Part shown: piece after piece, positions 2,755-11,609 of the stretch | Numbering within the stretch: position 1 is the first letter of the stretch | How the letters are laid out: each line of letters starts with the position of its first letter | Source: Balneolaceae bacterium | GTDB taxonomy: Bacteria; Bacteroidota; Rhodothermia; Balneolales; Balneolaceae | Length of the DNA: 52,997 nucleotides | Assembly (NCBI GenBank): GCA_020832285.1 | Contig: JAFIFB010000101.1 | Span: 1 to 52,997, forward strand | Direction: 5' to 3' | Program-made: the position numbers and the translations under genes | The notes under the pieces: model-generated | Told to the model about the DNA's origin: nothing | The model's input: the letters and a program-made list of their open reading frames with translations, nothing else | Database searches by the model: none

Positions 2755-4083
2755 CTAATAATTCGGTTGAATAATCGCTGCTTCAGAGGATACAACGGTG
2801 ATATAAATCAACGCGATGAAGATGAAAATGTTGATGCCGAGATTAATCCAGTTAATCACCGATTCGAGTTTATATTCGGTCTGTTTTTCGTAGTAATCGG
2901 CAAGCTGGCCCGAGTTTTCCTTGAGTGAACCCGATTCGGCTCCCAGCCGAAACCGGCTGAGTGCACTTTTTGGAAATACTTGCGTGGCTTCGAGTGATTC
3001 TATCAGCCCGGTTCCATCTTCAAGCATACTACGAATGGCTTCTTCCTTGATTTGATGTTCGATGTAGGTGTTACGGCACGCTTCTGCGGCAATGCGGATG
3101 ACCTCAATGTTTTGGCCCGAGCCGCTGTATAGTGTATGAAATACACGTGAAAAAATTTCGATACTGGTTTTATGCATCAGCTCGCCAATCAGCGGGATTC
3201 TGATGAGCAGTCGGTCGAGTATTAAACGGCCTTTTTTGTTTTTCCACATCATGGCCACGAGAACGACCGGTGCAACGTGTAAAATGGTGAGGATAACCCA
3301 GTGTGCCTGCAGCCAGTAGCTCCAGTTAAGTGCCTGGGCAGTGAGAGGAGGGAGCACAATGTCGAACTCTAAAAACATCTCGGCTGTTACGGGGAATACG
3401 TATCCAATAAAGAAAAGCAGTGTACCAATTACCGCCAGCACAGTAATGGAAGGCATAAAAAGGGAACGCCTCATATTCTTCTTGAAGTCGGCATCTCGCT
3501 CAATAAATTTTGCCGTGCTTTCGAACACTTGCGACATATTACCGCTCGTTGAGGCCACTCCCAGCATATAAGAGGCAAAACGCCCGAACACTTTTTCGTG
3601 TTTACCATATACTTCGGCTCCCTCTTTTCCATCACGAAGATCTTTCTGGATCTGACGGATAATCTCCTTCATCGATTTATTGGTGGTATCTTCGTAGAGG
3701 AGTGTAAGGATTTGATCATAGGGTAGTTTCTGGCGGAGAAGATCGGCCGACAGGCGGATAAAGGTGACCACTTCATCATTCGGCACCATGCCTTTAAAAT
3801 CGAACCACTTTTTCTTAACATATTCGACCTTGTAACCCATTTTACGGAGCGCGCGCTCCACCTCTTCGGGACTGTATGCCTCCTGCTCGCCCTCTACAGC
3901 CGTTCCGTTCTTTCGCACTTTGTAAAGAAAGGTCCGTTTTTCATCGATAGAGCGTACCTTTAATGAGCGGGTAGTTGCCAGTTTTTTAATCCGTTCGCCT
4001 GCTACTTTTTTGCTGGGCGCTTCGAATTCGCGCTGGAGCAATTTGCCGTTGGAAGTAATCGCTTGAAATCGAAAGTTTGGCAT
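2755..4083 (-). CDS. Type II secretion / type IV pilus inner-membrane platform protein (GspF/PilC family)
   Basis: This 442-residue polytopic protein has two T2SF domains, the usual architecture of the platform protein that couples the assembly ATPase to pilin extrusion. I place the start at the ATG beginning MPNFRFQAIT. It has GAAAGGA about 11 bases upstream and gives the usual GspF N-terminus. The frame stays open to an upstream ATG at 4146, but that start lies inside a perfect hairpin and has no ribosome site. Hydrophobic segments sit near residues 205-230, 250-275 and 405-430. The first T2SF half spans about 75-205 and the second about 300-420. The prepilin-like gene at 4284-4736 lies upstream on the same strand, separated by two hairpins. 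No GspE/PilB, GspD or peptidase is in the window, so this is a satellite locus. Confidence 0.88.
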   Translation of the reverse strand: MPNFRFQAITSNGKLLQREFEAPSKKVAGERIKKLATTRSLKVRSIDEKRTFLYKVRKNGTAVEGEQEAYSPEEVERALRKMGYKVEYVKKKWFDFKGMVPNDEVVTFIRLSADLLRQKLPYDQILTLLYEDTTNKSMKEIIRQIQKDLRDGKEGAEVYGKHEKVFGRFASYMLGVASTSGNMSQVFESTAKFIERDADFKKNMRRSLFMPSITVLAVIGTLLFFIGYVFPVTAEMFLEFDIVLPPLTAQALNWSYWLQAHWVILTILHVAPVVLVAMMWKNKKGRLILDRLLIRIPLIGELMHKTSIEIFSRVFHTLYSGSGQNIEVIRIAAEACRNTYIEHQIKEEAIRSMLEDGTGLIESLEATQVFPKSALSRFRLGAESGSLKENSGQLADYYEKQTEYKLESVINWINLGINIFIFIALIYITVVSSEAAIIQPNY

Positions 4084-4134
4084 ATCCTTTGTGATCCTTT
4101 CAGTTACAGGGAAAGATATATAAATAGCAGTGTG

Positions 4135-4180
4135 AGCTTTTTTCATGATCTGATATGATTAACAGATCATGAAAAAAGCT
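4135..4180. promoter_or_regulatory. Perfect 18-bp inverted repeat between prepilin and platform genes
   Basis: AGCTTTTTTCATGATCTG at 4135-4152 is exactly complementary to 4163-4180, with a 10-base loop. It lies in the leader of the GspF/PilC-like gene and encloses a competing upstream ATG (4144-4146). Depending on the strand and register it could be an operator dyad, an mRNA processing hairpin or a translation-controlling stem. It has A/T runs on both sides of the stem and could also help termination. Confidence 0.6.
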
Positions 4181-4206
4181 TGTTACTTTAAGATCAATTT
4201 GAAATA

Positions 4207-4231
4207 AAGACAGGGCATAAGGCCCTGTCTT
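4207..4231 (-). terminator. Intrinsic terminator or attenuator after the prepilin gene
   Basis: AAGACAGGGC and GCCCTGTCTT form a perfect 10-bp stem with a 5-base loop, followed on the minus strand by TATTTC. It lies about 50 bases after the stop of the prepilin-like gene and before the platform gene, so it probably lowers readthrough and keeps pilin mRNA more abundant than platform mRNA. The U-tract is short, so partial termination is more likely than full. Confidence 0.6.
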
Positions 4232-4283
4232 GAAATTATTGGATTAGAATTGAATAAGATAAAACTATAAAAATATAATTTTA

Positions 4284-4736
4284 TTAATCTTCAGTGCTTT
4301 CACCAGTTTGACCATCAACTGTGACTTGCCAATTTCCTTGTTCCGTTCTTGTTACCTGTAAAACAATATCAGGATCACCGCTCGATGGTGCTCCGGTAAT
4401 TTGAAGTCCATCACCGTCATTTATAACTGCTACAGTGTATGTGCCATTTTGATTTGTAAGGGGAGATGTACCATCCCAAGCAGAATCATGCGGAATATTT
4501 AGTCTTTGTAGCAATTGATCAGGACTGAAATTTCCAAAATCTCTATTAGCTCCATCCATCAAAGTTGGACGAGCCCATATGGCTTGTGCTTGAACACCTG
4601 CTCCCATCAAGTCCTGACGAACGGCATCACGGTTGGCCTGGTCAGATGCCTGGCCGAAGATATTAATAGCAACCACTGTGGCGATTCCCACAATGATGGT
4701 TACCAGAATTACGAGTAAGAGTTGTTGTTGACCCAT
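4284..4736 (-). CDS. Prepilin-like protein with MG-QQQLLL leader
   Basis: This 150-residue protein starts MGQQQLLLVILVTIIVG, a two-residue leader followed by one hydrophobic helix (about residues 6-27). A polar C-terminal domain has alternating beta-like segments and an acidic tail. A very short leader ending in glycine resembles type IV prepilin-like substrates. However, the residue after glycine is glutamine rather than phenylalanine or methionine, and the usual Glu5 is missing. AAGGTG lies 7 bases before the ATG and supports the start. The neighbouring GspF/PilC gene supports a pilus or pseudopilus role, and the terminator hairpin behind this gene fits a highly expressed subunit. It could instead be a membrane-anchored protein of unknown role. 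Confidence 0.65.
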   Translation of the reverse strand: MGQQQLLLVILVTIIVGIATVVAINIFGQASDQANRDAVRQDLMGAGVQAQAIWARPTLMDGANRDFGNFSPDQLLQRLNIPHDSAWDGTSPLTNQNGTYTVAVINDGDGLQITGAPSSGDPDIVLQVTRTEQGNWQVTVDGQTGESTED

Positions 4737-5292
4737 TTTAGTTCACCTTTGTTGTTTGTTATAGTTTGGTTGATTTGAGCTTTTCTTAGTTTAAGAAGTT
4801 TGACAGTATGGCTTACCATTCTGATAACAGTAGAGTTTTTTCACTAATTACCCTTTGTTGTACACCTTATTTTAATAGTGAGATAGTTTGCCAACATATC
4901 TTGATAGATAATATATTAAGTTTTTTTAATCTTTCAAATAAATATTAGAATATTTTAATAAATATCTTTTTACAATCGTATGATAGGCTATCAAAGTATC
5001 AAAAAATAGCAGGTTATTCCTGATACGCAATATAAAATATCAGTAAAAATACTGATGTGAACTACCCGTCAGTTCAAGCGCAAAGAGCGTAGCAAATATA
5101 GTCGAGAACTCGTTTTTGGTGGAAAAAATTTAATTTCGAATTTCCCTCTTCACCAACCAGCTTTCGCACTGACTTCAATCAACAATATTAATTATTTTTT
5201 CTGAAATCCAATACGCCAAAGATTTATCTGGTTTTTTATGGATTGTTTCATAAGATCCGAATGCTTTAATTTTTGGTAATAAATCAACGGAC
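4737..5292. other. AT-rich intergenic region
   Basis: This 556-base gap is very AT-rich at 4830-5060 and probably holds promoters for the divergent flanking genes. At 5178-5290 the minus strand has a protein-like open stretch (LLPKIKAFGSYETIHKK and onward to a stop) that runs into the start of the next gene. It may be the tail of a lost gene, but I do not recognise the family. No repeat of the other families was seen. Confidence 0.4.
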
Positions 5293-6126
5293 ATGAACGA
5301 TACTTTGGTCAACCGGATTTTTAACAAGCTCTCTTTGGTGTTGCTATTATTTTCCACAGCTTATATTTCTATAATACTAATTATTTCGTGGCTGGTGGAT
5401 ATCCAACAGGTGTATATATATGGAATAACCGAATGGACAGAGCAGTTTCCGGCTCCAATTTTCTGGCTCCACATTTTTAGGGAGGCATCGCTTACGGAAT
5501 ATTTTCAATGGTTGTTTCTCGGTATTTCGGTTATGGTCAGTGCCTGCTGCTGGTGGATGCATGACCGGAATTCCAGTGCAGTTTCCTGGGGCTGGGCCCT
5601 GCTCACGATCGGTGTACTAATTATGGTTCTAGAAGACAGTATTAACCTGCGCCATAAACTCTCATATTTCCTGTCTGAACATTTCTATAATGGGGTCGTC
5701 GGAACATATGAATGGAATAAAAGTTCCTTTAGAAGCATTATCGAAGTCTTTTTTTATGCTATTCTTGGTGGAGTTATGACAGCCGCTTTGTACCTTCTAT
5801 GGTTTTCTGATGTTTTGCCTTCAAAGGGTAAGTACTACCTCATTAGCGGATATATTATTTATGGAATTGCTGCAGCAGCATCTGCAACCAGGAATATTGG
5901 AGACTGGTATGCTAAAACAGGCGGGCATATTCTGGATACTATCATTGGGGAAAGAAATCTCGATTGGTCAGGTGAAAGCGTAGTATTTTTTCGTGATCCG
6001 CTTGGTTTCTGGTTTATGGATCATGTAGTTGAAGAGTCTCTCGAACTTCTCGGTGCAACTCTGCTACTTGGAGCACTGGTTATTCTTATTTCATTTCAAC
6101 GTCCACTCCATGAATCGGCCCACTGA
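5293..6126 (+). CDS. Multi-pass membrane protein of unknown function
   Basis: I do not recognise this 277-residue protein. It has about six hydrophobic segments, near residues 13-35, 66-86, 95-112, 150-172, 180-197 and 253-270. Short polar loops carry conserved-looking charged motifs (EDSINLRHK near 115, HVVEESLELLGA near 243). The acid residues inside or beside helices could bind ions or lipid headgroups. The N-terminus MNDTLVNRIFNKLSLVLLLF looks like a signal anchor. There is no partner gene: the upstream gene is on the other strand and a repeat array follows. Base composition resembles the surrounding chromosome. Confidence 0.55.
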   Translation: MNDTLVNRIFNKLSLVLLLFSTAYISIILIISWLVDIQQVYIYGITEWTEQFPAPIFWLHIFREASLTEYFQWLFLGISVMVSACCWWMHDRNSSAVSWGWALLTIGVLIMVLEDSINLRHKLSYFLSEHFYNGVVGTYEWNKSSFRSIIEVFFYAILGGVMTAALYLLWFSDVLPSKGKYYLISGYIIYGIAAAASATRNIGDWYAKTGGHILDTIIGERNLDWSGESVVFFRDPLGFWFMDHVVEESLELLGATLLLGALVILISFQRPLHESAH

Positions 6127-6181
6127 TCCCTTCCACTTTTTTTCTTGATGATTTGAGAAAGGAAAATAACTGCTTACAAAT

Positions 6182-6931
6182 ACAACGGGTCGCTGACCCG
6201 TTACTCATGGGCCTTGCAAACCACGGCGCTGGATGAAAGTAATGAGCAGCTTAGGTTAGATTCTTTAGAACGCTTGGTTGTTGAGCTTAACTCCCGAGTG
6301 CCGGACAAGCTGTCCGGCGTACAACGGGCAGCTTGCCCGTTACTCAGAAACCACTGCAAACCACGGAGCTGGATGAGAGGAAAGAACGCAGGTTCGAATC
6401 TTTAGAACACTTGGTTGTTGAGCTTAGTTTCCGAGTGCCGGGCAGGCTGCCCGGCGTACAACTCGCTGACCCGATAACTCGGAACCTTTCAAATATCCAT
6501 ACGAACTATTACTTCCAGAATTTTTAGCTGGACCTTCGATCATTTGGTTTTCAAAAGATCCCAAGCCTTCCGGTTCGGCGAACCGGGCTACATATCCCCG
6601 TACAACGGGTCGCTGACCCGTTACTCATAAGCCATACAAACCCCGGATCTGGATGAGAGGAAAGAACGTAGGTTCGAATCTTTAGAACGCTTGGTTGTTG
6701 AGCTTAGTTTCCGAGTGCCGGGCAGGCTGCCCGGCGTACAACTCGCTGACCCGATAACTCAGAACGTTGCAAATATCTAATCGAACTATTACTTCCAGAA
6801 TTTTTAGCTAAGACCTTCGATCATTAGGTTTTTAAAAGATCCCGATCCTTCCGGTTCAGCGAACCGGGCTACATGTTCCCGTACAACGGGCAGCTTGCCC
6901 GTTACTCAGAAACCACGCAAACCCCGGAGCT
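6182..6931. repeat. REP-like composite palindrome array, left part
   Basis: Three kinds of hairpin alternate with two kinds of spacer. Hairpin alpha is a 19-mer such as AACGGGTCGCTGACCCGTT (6184-6202, 6323-6341, 6885-6903, one more near 6604). Shortened copies near 6458 and 6738 have lost GGG from the left arm. Hairpin beta is GCCGGACAAGCTGTCCGGC or a variant (6300-6318, 6437-6455, 6717-6735). Hairpin gamma is CCGGTTCGGCGAACCGG (6570-6586, 6851-6867). Spacers are a ~55-base unit starting GGATGAGAGGAAAGAACG and a ~65-base unit holding ACTTCCAGAATTTTTAGCT. The segments 6371-6650 and 6651-6930 are tandem copies with a 280-base period. On the minus strand the stems are preceded by GTAG or GTAA, as in classic REP sequences. 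The array stops abruptly at about 6931, just before the hepT/mntA block. Confidence 0.85.
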
Positions 6932-7124
6932 TAATTATAAAAATGAACTTAGTTTATTATTCATAGTAAACTTGTTTGCTGTATCTGACCTTTATGAGGG
7001 TAGGATAGGACATAAGCGGGACGATTGTACGACAAAGGCCATAAAGTTTGGTTTATTTTGCAGGGCATGGATTCATTTATTATTCTAATATAGCAACGAA
7101 CGAAATGTAAGAATTCTATAAAAA

Positions 7125-7538
7125 ATGGCTAAAAAAGAGTTCAGATGGAAACAGAGGAGTGAAAATTATGAAAAAGCATTTCTTCGTCTGAAGGAGGCGA
7201 TTGAAATGGACGATTTGAACGAGCTGGAAAGAAATGGCCTGATTCAACGTTTTGAATTTAAGATTGATCTTGCATGGAAAGTGATGAAAGATTTTTTAGA
7301 GTATAAAGGTTTTGATTTCAAGCCTTCTCCGAAAGATACATTTCGCCTTGCTCAGCAAAGTGAATTTATTGATTATGCACAGGAACTCATAGACGGGCTG
7401 GATATGCGGAATGAACTGTCTCACGACTATAGTGGAGATAAGTTTGAATCTTGTGAAAAACAACTAAGAAAAGAGACTTTTCCTGCCCTTCAGAAGCTTT
7501 ATCAATTCTATGTAGCAGAAGCAAAAAAGAGTGTCTGA
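7125..7538 (+). CDS. hepT: HepT-like HEPN toxin (HI0074 family)
   Basis: This 137-residue all-helical HEPN protein pairs with the next gene, a minimal nucleotidyltransferase. HEPN toxins of this kind are RNases, and the catalytic RX4H motif is present as R95-N-E-L-S-H100 followed by Y102. The TIGR01987/HI0074-type features (W51-K-V-M-K and the long first helix) fit the 'nucleotidyltransferase substrate-binding' branch. In characterised HepT/MntA pairs the antitoxin adds AMP to a tyrosine near RX4H, and Y102 is the natural candidate. The coding region overlaps mntA by 8 bases, so the two are translationally coupled. It sits in a gap of the REP-like array, which suggests insertion as a unit. 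Confidence 0.88.
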   Translation: MAKKEFRWKQRSENYEKAFLRLKEAIEMDDLNELERNGLIQRFEFKIDLAWKVMKDFLEYKGFDFKPSPKDTFRLAQQSEFIDYAQELIDGLDMRNELSHDYSGDKFESCEKQLRKETFPALQKLYQFYVAEAKKSV

Positions 7539-7884
7539 TTCTATGAACCATAAAAACAGAAATCGATTTGGCCTGACTGACAGAGATATGAGAACCATTC
7601 AGGCAATATTTCAAACCTATCCAGCTGTTGAGTCAGTCCATATTTTTGGCAGCCGTGCAAAGGGGAATCACCGGATTGGGAGTGATCTGGATTTGGCTAT
7701 CATGAACAAGGGAGTTTCTTCAAAACAGATTGCATCAATTCGTGGAGATTTTGAGCAAAGCAGCCTGCCTTATAATGTTGATCTTGTAGATTTTAACCGA
7801 ATTGATAAAAAGGAATTTACCGATCATATCAAAAGGGTAGGAGTCCCATTTTTTAAACAAAACCGGGAAATTCCGACAGTTTAA
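7531..7884 (+). CDS. mntA: MntA-like minimal nucleotidyltransferase antitoxin
   Basis: This protein of 117 residues from GTG (113 from the in-frame ATG at 7543) is a MNT-type nucleotidyltransferase. The active-site pattern GSX10DXD is intact: G40-S41, then D52 and D54 in SDLDLAI, with a third carboxylate likely D84 in NVDLVDF. In related pairs it neutralises HepT by AMPylation. The GTG start overlaps the hepT stop region and gives 8 bases of overlap. The ATG 12 bases later, just past the hepT stop, is equally possible and would remove the overlap. Nothing in the active site looks broken, so the module is probably functional. Confidence 0.88.
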   Translation: MSDSMNHKNRNRFGLTDRDMRTIQAIFQTYPAVESVHIFGSRAKGNHRIGSDLDLAIMNKGVSSKQIASIRGDFEQSSLPYNVDLVDFNRIDKKEFTDHIKRVGVPFFKQNREIPTV

Positions 7885-7954
7885 AATAGATAATAAGCTA
7901 TTAGCATTTTCACAGAAGGAAAAACAGGACAACTACATTATCAGGGTTTCCCGC

Positions 7955-8376
7955 AGTACAACGGGTCGCTGACCCGTTACTCATGAGTCATGCAAACATC
8001 CACCCGAACTACGAATTACAATATTCTCAGATGGATCTTAAATTATTTAGTTTTTAAAAGATCCCAAGCCTTCCGGTTCGGCGAACCGGGCTACATGTCC
8101 CGTACAACGGGCAGCTTGCCCGTTACTCATGAGCCATTCAAATCCCGAATCTGGATGAGAGGAAAGATCGTAGTTTCGAATCTTTAGAACACTTGGTTGT
8201 TGAGTTTAACTCCCGAGTGCCGGACAAGCTGACCGGCGTACAACGGGCAGCTTGCCCGTTACTCAGAAACCATGCAAACCACGGAGCTGGATGAGAGGAA
8301 AGAACGCAGGTTCGAATCTTTAGAACGCTTGGTTGTTGAGCTTAGCTACCGGGTGCCGGACAAGCTGTCCGGCGTA
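7955..8376. repeat. REP-like composite palindrome array, right part
   Basis: The same modules continue after the toxin-antitoxin genes. They are hairpin alpha at 7960-7978, 8106-8124 and 8242-8260, gamma at 8073-8089, and beta at 8219-8237 (one mismatch in the stem) and 8355-8373. The ~55-base GGATGAGAGGAAAG spacer occurs near 8152 and 8288. The last beta unit ends 10-15 bases before the stop codon of the convergent serine hydrolase gene, so the array may form part of its mRNA 3' end. No CRISPR-like regular spacing or unique spacers are present. Confidence 0.85.
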
Positions 8377-8386
8377 CGCTTTGCAA

Positions 8387-9799
8387 CTATTCAACTTTCT
8401 GAAATTCCACATCCTGGGCGCGGCCGGTGGAGAGTAAAAAACCGGTGATCTGCCCGTTTTCGTCACGTTGAAATTTAAAATCCCATGATCCGGCCTGCCA
8501 GTGGTCGAATGATTCTTCGGTCATGGGTCCGTCGGGAGAGATGCGGCGGTTGAGGATGAGGTGGCCATCTTCTGCTGTTAGTTCATAATCGGTTTGCAGC
8601 TCTCTGCTGTGGTAGGTGCCGCTGTAGGGATTGAGGAATTCATCAAAAATATCTTCCAGAAAGAGTCTGGCCAGATCACGGTTTTTATCCGCAGGTTCTG
8701 CATCTTCGCGGTTGCAGAGCGTTAAAAATGAGAAGCCGTGTGCAGGATAGATTCTATAATCATTTTTGAATCCCATGAACGTTCCGCTGTGGCCGATCAC
8801 CTGCTCACCTTTCCATTCATTGATTTGCAGCCCCATCGCATAATTGAGAGGCTTTTGGTCGATGATCGCACGCACCAGCATCAGGGATTTCAGTTCAGTA
8901 AATTCAGAAGAGATTTCTTCATAATTCTGCCAGAATGCATCCCATTTTTGCCACTCTCCTGTAGTGGAGTAGAGTCCGCCCGGCCCCACTCCCTGGAAAT
9001 TGCTCAGATAAGTTTGCCTGAATCCATTCGGGCCGGGAGCGTAACTGATGACACGATTAGGAATCACCCGGTGCCGGTTGTCGTGAAAAAGAGTATTGTT
9101 CATCCCGAGCGGTTCCAGGATCTCTTTTTTTACAAATTCCGAAAATTCCATTCCGGAAATTTCCTGAACCAGTTTGGCAAGAGCTGTATATCCGCTATTG
9201 GTATATGAGTACTTTTCGCCCGGTGTGTATTTCAACGATTCACCGTTTTTGGTGATCTCCAGGTAGTCATCGATTGTCATCACATTGCTGAGTGAGATGC
9301 CAGCAATCGCCATCAGGTCGTACATATCGGGCAAACCGGATGTGTGGTTGAAGAGGTGACTGACCTGAACGGCACCGGCCCAATCCGGCCAGTCGTCCAG
9401 ATAATCGGAGACAGGAGCTTCTGGTGACAACTCCCCCCGGAGAACCAGCAGCCCTGCCGCGGCAGCAGTTACCTGCTTGGAAATAGATGCCATGTAAAAA
9501 GAGGAGCTGTCGCTGAGTGCGATTCCATAGTCGAGATTGGCCAGTCCGTATGAATTGTGAAAAATGGTTTGCCCATCCTGATAGACCGAAACCACACAGC
9601 CGGGTGCATCATCGGTATCGAAGGCTTCAAAAATATTGTTAATTTTTTCCCGGAGCTCTTCAGGAACCGGATCAGTCGAGACTGAAGAAGTGCCGGTAAA
9701 CAGGATTCCCGCAAAAAGGCAGAAGATTAATAGTACCGGAAGCAATGTATTCTTTCTTACGGAAGCTGATCGGGAATTTGGGTTTGCTGGGCTCATCAT
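8387..9799 (-). CDS. Exported serine hydrolase, class C beta-lactamase fold (second of tandem pair)
   Basis: This 470-residue protein has a positively charged N-terminus and a hydrophobic signal or anchor helix near residues 17-37. It has a class C beta-lactamase/penicillin-binding-like domain (about 50-370) and a small C-terminal beta domain. The catalytic set is visible: S-I-S-K (SxxK) in the segment FYMASISKQ, Y-T-N in YSYTNSGY, and H-S-G in GHSGTFMGF. Such proteins are D-aminopeptidases, esterases or peptidoglycan-related hydrolases, and the substrate cannot be fixed from sequence. The ATG overlaps the stop of the upstream paralog (TGATG), so it is translationally coupled to it. A REP-like array lies just after its stop. 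Confidence 0.85.
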   Translation of the reverse strand: MMSPANPNSRSASVRKNTLLPVLLIFCLFAGILFTGTSSVSTDPVPEELREKINNIFEAFDTDDAPGCVVSVYQDGQTIFHNSYGLANLDYGIALSDSSSFYMASISKQVTAAAAGLLVLRGELSPEAPVSDYLDDWPDWAGAVQVSHLFNHTSGLPDMYDLMAIAGISLSNVMTIDDYLEITKNGESLKYTPGEKYSYTNSGYTALAKLVQEISGMEFSEFVKKEILEPLGMNNTLFHDNRHRVIPNRVISYAPGPNGFRQTYLSNFQGVGPGGLYSTTGEWQKWDAFWQNYEEISSEFTELKSLMLVRAIIDQKPLNYAMGLQINEWKGEQVIGHSGTFMGFKNDYRIYPAHGFSFLTLCNREDAEPADKNRDLARLFLEDIFDEFLNPYSGTYHSRELQTDYELTAEDGHLILNRRISPDGPMTEESFDHWQAGSWDFKFQRDENGQITGFLLSTGRAQDVEFQKVE

Positions 9800-11133
9800 C
9801 AGTTGGTTTGGCGGGTGAAGGTTAGTGTACCGGTTCGGGGCGCTTCAATGGTGAAAGCTTTTATGGCACCTTCATCATCACGCAGAAATCTCAGGTTCCA
9901 TTGGCCCGCTGTAAAACGGTCATCATCGGACCAGGAGAGTTCGCGAGGCTCTTCAAATGCACGCTTCAGATAGAGATTATCCTCTTTTGCCTGAACTGAA
10001 AATTGTGAGTTCAGCCCGTTGTTTCGGTATGTGCCGGTGTATTCATCGAAGAGCTCATCAAAAATATCTTTCAGATAAAGATCGGCAACTTCCAGCGTAT
10101 AATCTGCCGGGTTGATGTTGCTCATATTGCAGAAAACAAAAATTCCAAGATCATGGCCGGGGAAGCGCATGTAGTGAGAACGAAAACCCATATAATTGCC
10201 TCCATGACCAAGGGTGTAGAGCGATTTATACTTTCCGAGCCGGAGTCCGCTCGCGTAGTTAATGGAATCGGTTTCGGTTGTGTAACCTGGTTGAATCATT
10301 TTCGAAGTGAAGTTTTCCAGGTTTGACCGGTTTTCGTTGAAATTGAGATCCCATTTTGCAAAATCAGAAATGGTTGTAAATAACCCGCGGGCACCCACCC
10401 TGTCCATGTTGCCGCGATAAAACATTCCCGGCCCGTCATTCGTGGACAGATAGCTGATCACCCGGCCGGATACAATCTCTTCTGTATCGTCATGCCAGTG
10501 GGTCGCGTCCATCCCGATCGGTTCAAAAAAGTGTTTATGGGAGTATTCCCTCAAACTTAACCCGGAAAATTTTTCGACAATGACCGAAATCAAAAAGTAG
10601 GCCATATTACTGTAGAGATGTTGTGTGCCGGGATCGAAGTTCAGTTTTTGCTGATGTGAGAGGAGTTCGAGAGCCTGTTGAGATGTGGTGGTGTTGTCCA
10701 GACCGATATCTGCAATGATCAGCAGATTGTATATATCGCGGATTCCGGAGGTGTGATGAATAAGCTGACGCGCTGTAATTGGATGATCGAATTGGGATAT
10801 TTCAGGAATATGGGAGCGGAGATCTTCGTCAAGGTCCAGATTCCCTTCTTGTTCAAGCATCAGCAGGGCAGCGGCGGCAAACTGCTTGGAAATGGAAGCG
10901 ATCATGAATCGCGAGTCAGGCGTGATGGGAATGCCGTAGTCCAGGTTTGCGGTTCCGTACCCTTTTTTAAAAATCGTTTCCCCGTTTTGATTGATTCCGA
11001 CAGCACAACCCGGAGTTTGAGGCTGATCAAATTCTTCAAAAATCTCATCGATCTGCTCCGTTGATATCTCCTGGGCAAGAAGAGCGGGAGTCAGCAGCAT
11101 CAGTAAAAACAATATAAAGCAGGTTGTTTTCAT
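9799..11133 (-). CDS. Exported serine hydrolase, class C beta-lactamase fold (first of tandem pair)
   Basis: This 444-residue paralog of the downstream gene has the same domain order: signal peptide (MKTTCFILFLLMLLTPALLAQ region), beta-lactamase-fold domain and short beta-rich tail. Motifs are SISK in MIASISKQF, Y-S-N in HLYSNMAYF, and H-G-G in LGHGGNYMGF. I prefer the ATG at 11133, because it begins a standard signal peptide. The frame is open 13 codons further upstream (11172), but that extension would put polar residues before the signal. The two genes form a two-gene operon that probably arose by tandem duplication and has since diverged widely. The target may be a peptide or ester in the envelope. 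Confidence 0.85.
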   Translation of the reverse strand: MKTTCFILFLLMLLTPALLAQEISTEQIDEIFEEFDQPQTPGCAVGINQNGETIFKKGYGTANLDYGIPITPDSRFMIASISKQFAAAALLMLEQEGNLDLDEDLRSHIPEISQFDHPITARQLIHHTSGIRDIYNLLIIADIGLDNTTTSQQALELLSHQQKLNFDPGTQHLYSNMAYFLISVIVEKFSGLSLREYSHKHFFEPIGMDATHWHDDTEEIVSGRVISYLSTNDGPGMFYRGNMDRVGARGLFTTISDFAKWDLNFNENRSNLENFTSKMIQPGYTTETDSINYASGLRLGKYKSLYTLGHGGNYMGFRSHYMRFPGHDLGIFVFCNMSNINPADYTLEVADLYLKDIFDELFDEYTGTYRNNGLNSQFSVQAKEDNLYLKRAFEEPRELSWSDDDRFTAGQWNLRFLRDDEGAIKAFTIEAPRTGTLTFTRQTN

Positions 11134-11609
11134 AAACGGTGATTGTATGAATATGCCGTGAGAGCGATGCAATATATCAAAACAGAGGGAAAATGGTAGT
11201 AGGATTCATTTCACAAAAATATGCATCTAGTATCGTGTCAACTGTAAAGTGTGAGAGAGTCATCAGACGAGTCGTTCCGGGATCATCCCAATCATCTACA
11301 TTGGTATATTTTTTAAAAAACTCGTCTGATGACTTACGAAACTTCAACCGATGGTTCATATTTGACTTAACAACAAAAGAAAAAAATCATCAGATAAGTT
11401 TATATAAAACAGTCCGGATTGAAGAAGATCTCATCAAATGGATTCATCTTATAATTGATCCGTTATTTTCTTATTTGCGGTGCTATAAGAATTATTCTGG
11501 ATAGATTGAAATGGTGGCTGTACAATCCCCTCTTGAGAGGGGACTTTCTGTGTTTCAAAATATCCTAAATACAATAATCCCTGTAAGACCATTTTATCAA
11601 TTACATGTG
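11134..11609. other. Intergenic region with a 77-bp element
   Basis: The gap between the serine hydrolase start and the purK stop holds the 77-bp element at 11258-11334 with its flanks TAGTATCGTGTCAA (11228) and TTACGAAACTTC (11335). A small palindrome, ATCCCCTCTTGAGAGGGGA, lies near 11525 and resembles text at 14784. Overlapping short open frames on both strands follow the repeat and are not convincing genes. Confidence 0.5.
11258..11334 (+). repeat. 77-bp element with inverted ends, copy B
   Basis: AGTCATCAGACGAGT at the left and ACTCGTCTGATGACT at the right form perfect 15-bp inverted terminal repeats. The middle includes GGATCATCCCAATCATC and a run of T then A. The copy at 2006-2082 has the same length in the opposite direction but with weaker ends, so this is the better preserved one. 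It is too short to encode a transposase. Confidence 0.75.

Follow-up and report, generated by a model that had tools for sequence, protein, structure and literature searches.

Why does a toxin–antitoxin module lie within an array of small palindromes? The question is raised by a stretch of 52,997 nucleotides from a Balneolaceae bacterium, called the window here, which is a whole contig (C10) of an assembly of 5.33 Mb in 130 contigs that is 99% complete. In this window a hepT/mntA gene pair has palindromic repeats on both sides. An earlier note on this DNA had seen a REP-like array interrupted by the module, the latter having been inserted into or assembled within the array, unless the array had grown around it.

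Organization of the array

The repeats and the hepT/mntA genes lie together between two convergent genes, an ORF of 277 aa without a Pfam match on the left (5293–6126, plus strand) and an ORF of the beta-lactamase family on the right (8387–9799, minus strand). A hairpin scan detected 22 strong hairpins in the whole window, 14 of which are found at 6184–8373, nine on the left side (6184–6903) and five on the right (7960–8373). They are organized in nine units of ~140–150 nt, six on the left (6180–6981) and three on the right (7956–8377), each unit being an inverted pair of REP-like hairpins that flank one of two spacers, S1 or S2. The three hairpin types and two spacer types described earlier do recur on both sides of the module, but hairpins A and B turned out to be one element (GTAC, an 8-bp stem, a 3-nt loop and the stem again), B being A reversed, and hence there are two kinds of unit, A-S1-B of 140–143 nt and A-S2-C of 148–150 nt. 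The A/B hairpin is often followed by ACTC or ACCTC. Hairpin C, read on the minus strand, consists of GTAG, one base (C) and then the hairpin.

All units are given on the plus strand. The first, u1 (A-S1-B, 6180–6322, hairpins 6184–6202 and 6300–6318), differs in the first base of its tail (ATAC) and has the GTAC at 6319–6322 in common with u2 (A-S1-B, 6319–6459, hairpins 6323–6341 and 6437–6455). Unit u3 (6456–6603) is composed of a degenerate A, S2 and C (6570–6586, with the minus-strand GTAG-C-hairpin order), u4 (6600–6739, hairpins 6604–6622 and 6717–6735) is again A-S1-B, and u5 (6736–6884) repeats the degenerate A, S2 and C (6851–6867). The last unit on this side, u6 (6881–6981), has an intact A (6885–6903), the start of S1 and a decayed S1 from 6932 to ~6981, with no recognisable B. 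On the right side r1 (A-S2-C, 7956–8105, hairpins 7960–7978 and 8073–8089) is followed by r2 (A-S1-B, 8102–8241, hairpin 8106–8124, the B partner having one stem mismatch) and r3 (A-S1-B, 8238–8377, hairpins 8242–8260 and 8355–8373). The spacers follow each other as S1 S1 S2 S1 S2 S1 (decayed) on the left and S2 S1 S1 on the right, which is not strictly the cyclic order proposed before. Where A/B hairpins meet tail to tail, a single GTAC is shared at all 12 junctions in the loci read of this genome, and the sister genome G005 has GTACGTAC at 6 of 11 such junctions in the loci read. An Rfam search of positions 5000–9000 with E up to 1 gave nothing convincing; the sole match, to SAM-II with E 0.86 and 21.5 bits where the gathering score is 44, was taken as chance.

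Identity to S1 drops at 6931, where the left array had been thought to stop abruptly. However, the array does not end there, and a decayed sixth unit extends to ~6981. Positions 6932–6981 agree with the S1 units at 29–31 of 50 bases, in register (the best of eight offsets), while the best shuffles gave 25–29 and 0 or 1 of 2000 shuffles reached the observed value; in addition, an S1 profile aligns 6881–6981 at 57.9 bits. When the sequence from 6932 onward was scored alone, local alignments with the five units were equalled by 1, 4, 5, 15 and 91 of 1000 shuffles, and the profile gave −2.2 and −2.3 bits, scores that 12 and 7 shuffles in 1000 also attained; scored in this way, the evidence for a decayed u6 is weak. 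Past 6981 hairpin B is unrecognisable and no further similarity to a unit was seen, and a comparison of 7885–7955 with the array units revealed no homology clearly above shuffles. The sharp fall in identity at 6931 resembles the border of a homogenised segment, such as gene conversion might leave, more than an insertion joint. The right array starts with the GTAC at 7956 (~7955 in the earlier note). Left and right units are intermingled in sequence (u2 and r3 are 95% identical, u2 and u1 81%, r3 and r2 88%), a pattern that favours insertion into a pre-existing array by a small margin. Recombination between left and right units would, however, also lead to such intermingling. The exact gene junction of this locus was found in no other genome searched.

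Distribution of the repeats in the genome

The earlier note had suggested counting the copies genome-wide, and had remarked that arrays of this kind beside many unrelated genes would remove the link to the module. With the 23-nt pattern GTACRNCGGRYMGCYKRYCCGNY and up to one mismatch the genome contains 79 sites (39 forward, 40 reverse), 60 of them exact, compared to 0 for the reversed-pattern control; the repeats are real and far beyond chance. The sites fall into 31 clusters, of which 16 consist of a single pattern site and 15 of at least two, the largest being the window array (12 of the 79 sites), followed by those of C70 (8) and C16 (7). A profile search (E below 1e-6) placed full-length units of the S1 type at eleven further positions in this genome, distributed over nine contigs, and such units were also detected in the sister genomes G005, G007, G011, G013 and G016; S2-C units are present on contigs C33, C46 and C115 and in G017. 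Like the REP elements associated with REPINs and RAYTs, the hairpins are short, multi-copy, extragenic palindromes, and like the REPs of a REPIN they are inverted around a spacer and dispersed as a unit.

Palindromes recurring between genes are also what a chromosomal integron-like cassette array would present, with attC-type palindromes and hepT/mntA as a gene cassette, and toxin–antitoxin pairs are common in integron cassettes. The core of attC sites has the form GTTRRRY. By eye no such core is present at the feet of the hairpins, where the sequence reads GTTACTC, and the hairpins themselves are 8+3+8 palindromes with a GTAC foot. Moreover, in 26 of the 31 clusters the DNA between the sites lacks any ORF of 100 aa or longer, and in relatives the same stems flank RAYT genes. 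Judged by the palindromes and the genes around them, a cassette array is very unlikely. Elsewhere, the ORF between the sites of C69 is a gene overlapped at its 3′ end by the unit, and ORFs of at least 100 aa between the hairpins of C33, C70 and C125 were rejected as hidden genes, since they look spurious by eye. Only the window cluster, among the 31, encloses a clear gene pair.

According to mechanical picks of the longest ORFs, 10 of the 31 clusters lie between convergent and 17 between co-directional ORFs, with 3 in a divergent context and 1 undetermined. Many clusters start 3–30 bp from the 3′ end of an ORF, and the 3′ ends of predicted ORFs are overlapped by 28 nt in C69 and by 14 nt in both C16 and C115. 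This proximity to 3′ ends, together with 10 convergent against 3 divergent contexts, could indicate that selection keeps the hairpins at gene ends as terminators or functional RNA elements, and that recombination, not a transposase, has multiplied them; effects of REPs on termination and mRNA stability are hypothesised according to the survey PMC3733652. However, the fixed orientation of the loop, the RAYT genes between the same stems and the spacer units in several species point to mobility, and we consider this reading as a whole unlikely. The terminator and mobility views need not conflict, as a REP may take on a role of this kind once it has inserted.

The genes beside the 14 other multi-site clusters were characterized from the closest ORFs of 140 aa or more, one to the left and one to the right of each cluster. 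Of these 28 proteins, 24 match a Pfam family (E up to 1e-5) and 4 do not; the families include class I glutamyl/glutaminyl tRNA synthetase, spermidine synthase, DnaB, UvrD helicase, thiamine monophosphate synthase and peptidases, while 0 of the 28 belong to a HEPN, MNT or other toxin–antitoxin family. Arrays of such hairpins thus adjoin many unrelated genes, and by the criterion of the earlier note a special link to the toxin–antitoxin module finds no support. The counts alone would leave room for a link specific to this locus, because the window array is the largest and the sole one with a gene pair.

Repeats and RAYT genes in related genomes

As a DNA query the left array gave matches in 11 of 58 genomes (its own included), all of one genus. 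The pattern GTACRNCGGRYMGCYKRYCCGNY, again with up to one mismatch, matched 20 of the 58 (its own included), among others with 127 sites in G005, 58 in G016, 40 in G013, 37 in G007, 23 in G017 and 13 in G011. Outside the genus, 3 of 30 genomes have 1–2 sites, and the reversed-pattern control produced 5 hits in total over the 58 genomes.

In G007 these hairpins are found on both sides of a gene for a RAYT-like protein of 217 aa. A search of the genus with this protein yielded six close members including the query (54–100% identity), in G003, G005, G007, G011, G021 and G023. The RAYTs of G005, G007 and G011 (~213–217 aa, 62–63% identical to the G007 query) are flanked by the same stems, which carry GTAG or GTAA tails in G011, and that of G005 sits within a large array of the same repeats; those of G003, G021 and G023 (54–57%) lie between hairpins that are related but differ in stem or tail. 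All six have an NHVH motif and a YT(I/L)xNPVK motif, and the NCBIfam model NF047646 (REP-associated tyrosine transposase) matches the proteins of G007 and G011 with E values of 5e-22 and 3e-20, the scores of 78.3 and 72.7 being just under the cut-off of 80. The part matched by the model is preceded by an N-terminal stretch of ~80 aa. A probable cognate RAYT flanked by the same REP was thus found in G005, G007 and G011 but not in the genome of the window. The description of the array as REP-like was right, and the RAYT-flanking stems sharpen it to the REPIN/RAYT type.

In the genome of the window, 99% complete, no RAYT of this clade was found, the best matches (28–30% identity) being other RAYT types; this search covers the assembled contigs, and a RAYT might be buried in an unassembled array. 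With tblastn of the G007 RAYT, the best candidate for a remnant in the window had only E 0.11. Seven Y1-transposase loci of the same genome adjoin hairpins of other types. None of the other Y1-transposase loci scanned (L106–L134 except L129), many of which are from repeat-poor genomes, shows such a hairpin; L107 has one chance match of another sequence. Because the RAYT of the clade was not found, the family is probably non-autonomous in this genome now. That the window array, being the largest, was formerly the home of the RAYT and that the toxin–antitoxin pair replaced the transposase seems very improbable to us.

The hepT/mntA module

The gene hepT (7125–7538, plus strand) encodes a HEPN toxin of 137 aa that matches PF08780 (E 4e-28) and carries the RX4HXY motif as RNELSHDY. 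The adjacent mntA (7546–7884, plus strand) encodes an MNT adenylyltransferase antitoxin of 112 aa that matches PF18765 and PF01909 and has the GSX10DXD motif GSRAKGNHRIGSDLD; its start was placed at the ATG at 7546, a longer ORF being possible from the GTG at 7531. Both motifs were identified by eye from the translations, with the definitions given in PMC7641770. The proteins match solved HEPN/MNT chains such as 8xdj and 8xeh. A HEPN protein with RX4HXY beside an MNT protein with GSX10DXD characterizes class I HepT/MntA, and this combination is present here. The HepT/MntA (HEPN/MNT) system as described in PMC7641770 agrees in that its genes are adjacent, one for a PF08780 protein with RX4HXY and the other for an MNT protein that carries GSX10DXD; against that description nothing unusual was seen in the proteins of the window, MntA being below its NCBIfam cut-off (score 45 versus 60). 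To judge from the motifs, hepT/mntA is an ordinary, apparently intact type VII toxin–antitoxin pair.

Array and module might still form one unit, hepT/mntA being cargo or a passenger that the hairpin elements move or maintain, for instance if the hairpins were the ends of a composite element or if the toxin–antitoxin pair guarded the array against deletion. The module is enclosed by two unit-bearing stretches, the right one starting exactly at a GTAC tag, and the RAYT genes of the sister genomes likewise lie between hairpins, with gaps of 769–954 bp compared to 1056 bp here. The HepT genes of other genomes speak against such a unit. Relatives of HepT are present in 7 of 28 genomes of the genus, its own included, which leaves six others, and none of these six sister loci showed such a hairpin in the 6–13 kb read of each, in a scan that required an exact GTAC and with one side unread in G018, G013 and G017, whose contigs end ~0.5, 0.3 and 1.4 kb from the HepT gene. 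The G005 locus has one chance GTAC match of another sequence. In the complete site lists (up to one mismatch), the HepT contigs of G007, G013, G017 and G018 contain no site. DNA similarity to the nearest pairs, those of G007 and G018 (74–75% protein identity), spans about the two genes and not the flanks. Four of the six genomes (G005, G007, G013 and G017) carry repeats in 23–127 copies each, and therefore the pairing had a chance to recur, which was not seen. Together with the lack of toxin–antitoxin families among the 28 proteins beside the 14 other multi-site clusters, these results make a common unit of array and module improbable. The interruption described earlier thus holds as geography, while a special link finds no support in view of the 31 places beside unrelated genes and the six HepT loci without such a hairpin in the stretches read.

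Neighbouring genes and search for an empty site

Among the 58 genomes (its own included), relatives of the 277-aa gene exist only in G039 and G015, where they adjoin pilin-like genes; one further relative comes from a MAG titled Alkalimonas. A beta-lactamase-like gene pair is conserved in many sister genomes. The 11 stretches around this pair contain no such hairpin, two chance matches of other sequence apart. Ten of them cover 0.5–8 kb on the array side, and this null result says little since only G024, G021 and G009 of those ten genomes have at least 8 repeat copies. In G017, the nearest relative on the beta-lactamase side, the contig ends within the gene, and a search of that genome revealed no T2SSF match. 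As neither an empty site nor a transposition event was seen, we infer the mobility of the elements.

Tag, loop and cutting site

With the loop left free, the loci read of this genome contain 75 GTAC-tagged 8+3+8 hairpins, the loop being GCT in 52, GCC in 19 and another triplet in 4; ten other tetranucleotides at the same position gave 2 hairpins altogether. The loop is fixed relative to the tag, which fits recognition of one strand. The A/B tag is GTAC in 60 exact cases and GTAG in 0, so that these elements stand apart from the canonical tag, taken to be GTAG or GTGG in the survey PMC6006769. Hairpin C does carry GTAG. On the same hairpin pattern GTAG was counted 8 times in G011, 7 in G009, 4 in G016 and 2 each in G005, G021 and G024, and the tag variants GTAG, GTAT and GTCC occur beside sister RAYTs. 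Within 6 nt after the hairpin, the 77 copies of this genome have CT in 67 cases, CA in 26, GA in 8 and GT in 4; in the sister genomes CT is less constant, being present in 23 of 27 copies in G005, 6/7 in G007, 4/7 in G011, 4/9 in G013, 3/11 in G016 and 5/7 in G017. In these tabulations of tails and CT the loci were picked by the GTAC pattern and the copies of an array are not independent, while the genome-wide counts of GTAC versus GTAG are independent of the choice of loci and use one hairpin core.

The closest known system by form is REPtron Sm (REPSm and TnpA-Sm) of Stenotrophomonas maltophilia as presented in PMC8266576. REPSm, of 23 nt, has a tetranucleotide directly before a perfect stem of 8 bp, which is closed by a 3-nt GCT loop, and its cutting site is a CT dinucleotide; the tag position, the 8-bp stem, the GCT loop and CT are common to both. 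Loop orientation matters in REPtron Sm, and it is fixed in the window family. In contrast, the tag of REPtron Sm is GTAG and that of the window family GTAC, and the sister RAYTs have the ~80-aa N-terminal stretch, as judged against NF047646. According to the same text, the S. maltophilia enzyme still bound a substrate with a GTAC tag but no longer cut it, and with this tag the Marinomonas enzyme was directed to GA or GT instead; under the guide-to-cut-site rule proposed for these transposases, GTAC should select GT or GA.

The REPINs of Pseudomonas fluorescens SBW25 (Bertels and Rainey 2011, PMC3116915) are described as inverted REP doublets that form tandem clusters, as in the window, and each REPIN type clusters beside its own RAYT. 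The doublet spacings reported there are 71 and 110 bp and the largest tandem cluster has four REPINs, whereas nine units of 140–150 nt are found here; the window array also differs in mixing two kinds of unit and in having no cognate RAYT found in its genome. The GTAG-tagged REP superfamily (Di Nocera et al. 2013, PMC3733652) likewise comprises small extragenic palindromes, head-to-head dimers and large tandem clusters, with conserved spacers of 20–100 bp in most, and is located mostly between co-directional or convergent genes. Hairpin C shares the tag of this superfamily. The tag degeneracy of the survey concerns positions 2 and 3 and GTAC is absent from its main text, whereas hairpins A and B of the window carry GTAC. 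PMC3116915 and PMC3733652 already describe clusters of REPINs, dimers arranged head to head around conserved spacers, RAYTs located among REPs, and RAYT loss. In a full-text literature with incomplete journal coverage, GTAC in connection with REPs or TnpAREP and RAYTs appeared only in PMC8266576, as part of an engineered substrate in the text available there, and no REP work on Balneolaceae or Balneola turned up; for REPs together with RAYTs and toxin–antitoxin systems one paper, PMC3390384, came up. What appears to be new is the natural GTAC tag of RAYT-type REPINs, the REPIN/RAYT arrangement being known.

For the natural GTAC family, then, either the choice of CT would follow a different rule or the cut would fall at another place, which might be GTAC. 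We would tentatively consider, as a possibility that is still rather doubtful, that in a lineage of natural REPs and RAYTs the guide has changed from GTAG to GTAC while CT was retained, in which case the guide-to-cut-site rule would fail here or the self-complementary GTAC would have become the cutting and joining site. A cutting and joining site at GTAC would explain the single GTAC common to tandem units.

A model for the locus

Taken together, the array is very probably a RAYT-type REPIN cluster and hepT/mntA an incidental neighbour, for which no functional link is needed. The units of ~140–150 nt, with two inverted hairpins and a conserved spacer, would be cut and pasted in single-stranded form by a RAYT (TnpA-REP) transposase, whose probable representative is the sister-species enzyme flanked by the same stems. 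As to the direction in which the array grew, a unit may have inserted beside the GTAC tag of another, or copies may have undergone unequal recombination, with later exchange between left and right units. In the history of insertion, hepT/mntA would have entered, or been retained in, the stretch between the two convergent genes.

With the link to the toxin–antitoxin module dissolved, effort is saved that would have gone into explaining it. The genus offers a natural experiment, in which one clade of RAYTs is accompanied by near-identical hairpins with GTAC (G005 and G007) or GTAG (G011). A comparison of these natural enzymes, which are 62–63% identical, would test the guide rule for the cutting site of REP transposases directly.

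Results and Discussion

On the left of the window's hairpin array, a 277-aa ORF (5293-6126), for which no Pfam match was found, has relatives in genome G015 and in G039, which belongs to a different family of the same order, and none in the others of the 58 genomes; in G015 and G039 too, its neighbours are pilin-like genes. The two tandem beta-lactamase-family genes at 8387-11172 are conserved together in many of the genomes from this genus.

The second-largest hairpin cluster in the window's own genome (locus L022, about 4079-5449; contig C70:56078-57448) consists of unit pairs separated by gaps of 605 and 410 nt, in neither of which a convincing gene was seen by eye. On contig C69, a hairpin unit (L019, about 4072-4210; C69:59071-59209) overlaps the final 28 nt of a 1198-aa UvrD/PD-(D/E)XK ORF, so that the repeat appears to supply the end of this gene.

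The same genome carries further Y1 transposases, two RAYTs and two of the IS200 type, above their respective NCBIfam cut-offs, on contigs C18 (L144/L015, near 29.9 kb), C24 (L014), C41 (L010) and C97 (L009). The hairpins adjoining them belong to other types than those of the array; the foot of those at L009 resembles the foot of hairpin C.

Beside RAYTs of a single clade, the tail letters of the hairpins, read by eye, differ between genomes: GTAC in G005 (L136) and G007, GTAG/GTAA in G011 (L137), GTAC/GTAT in G021 (L138) and G023 (L139), and GTCC in G003 (L140). It is possible that this variation within one clade is a record of guide co-evolution.
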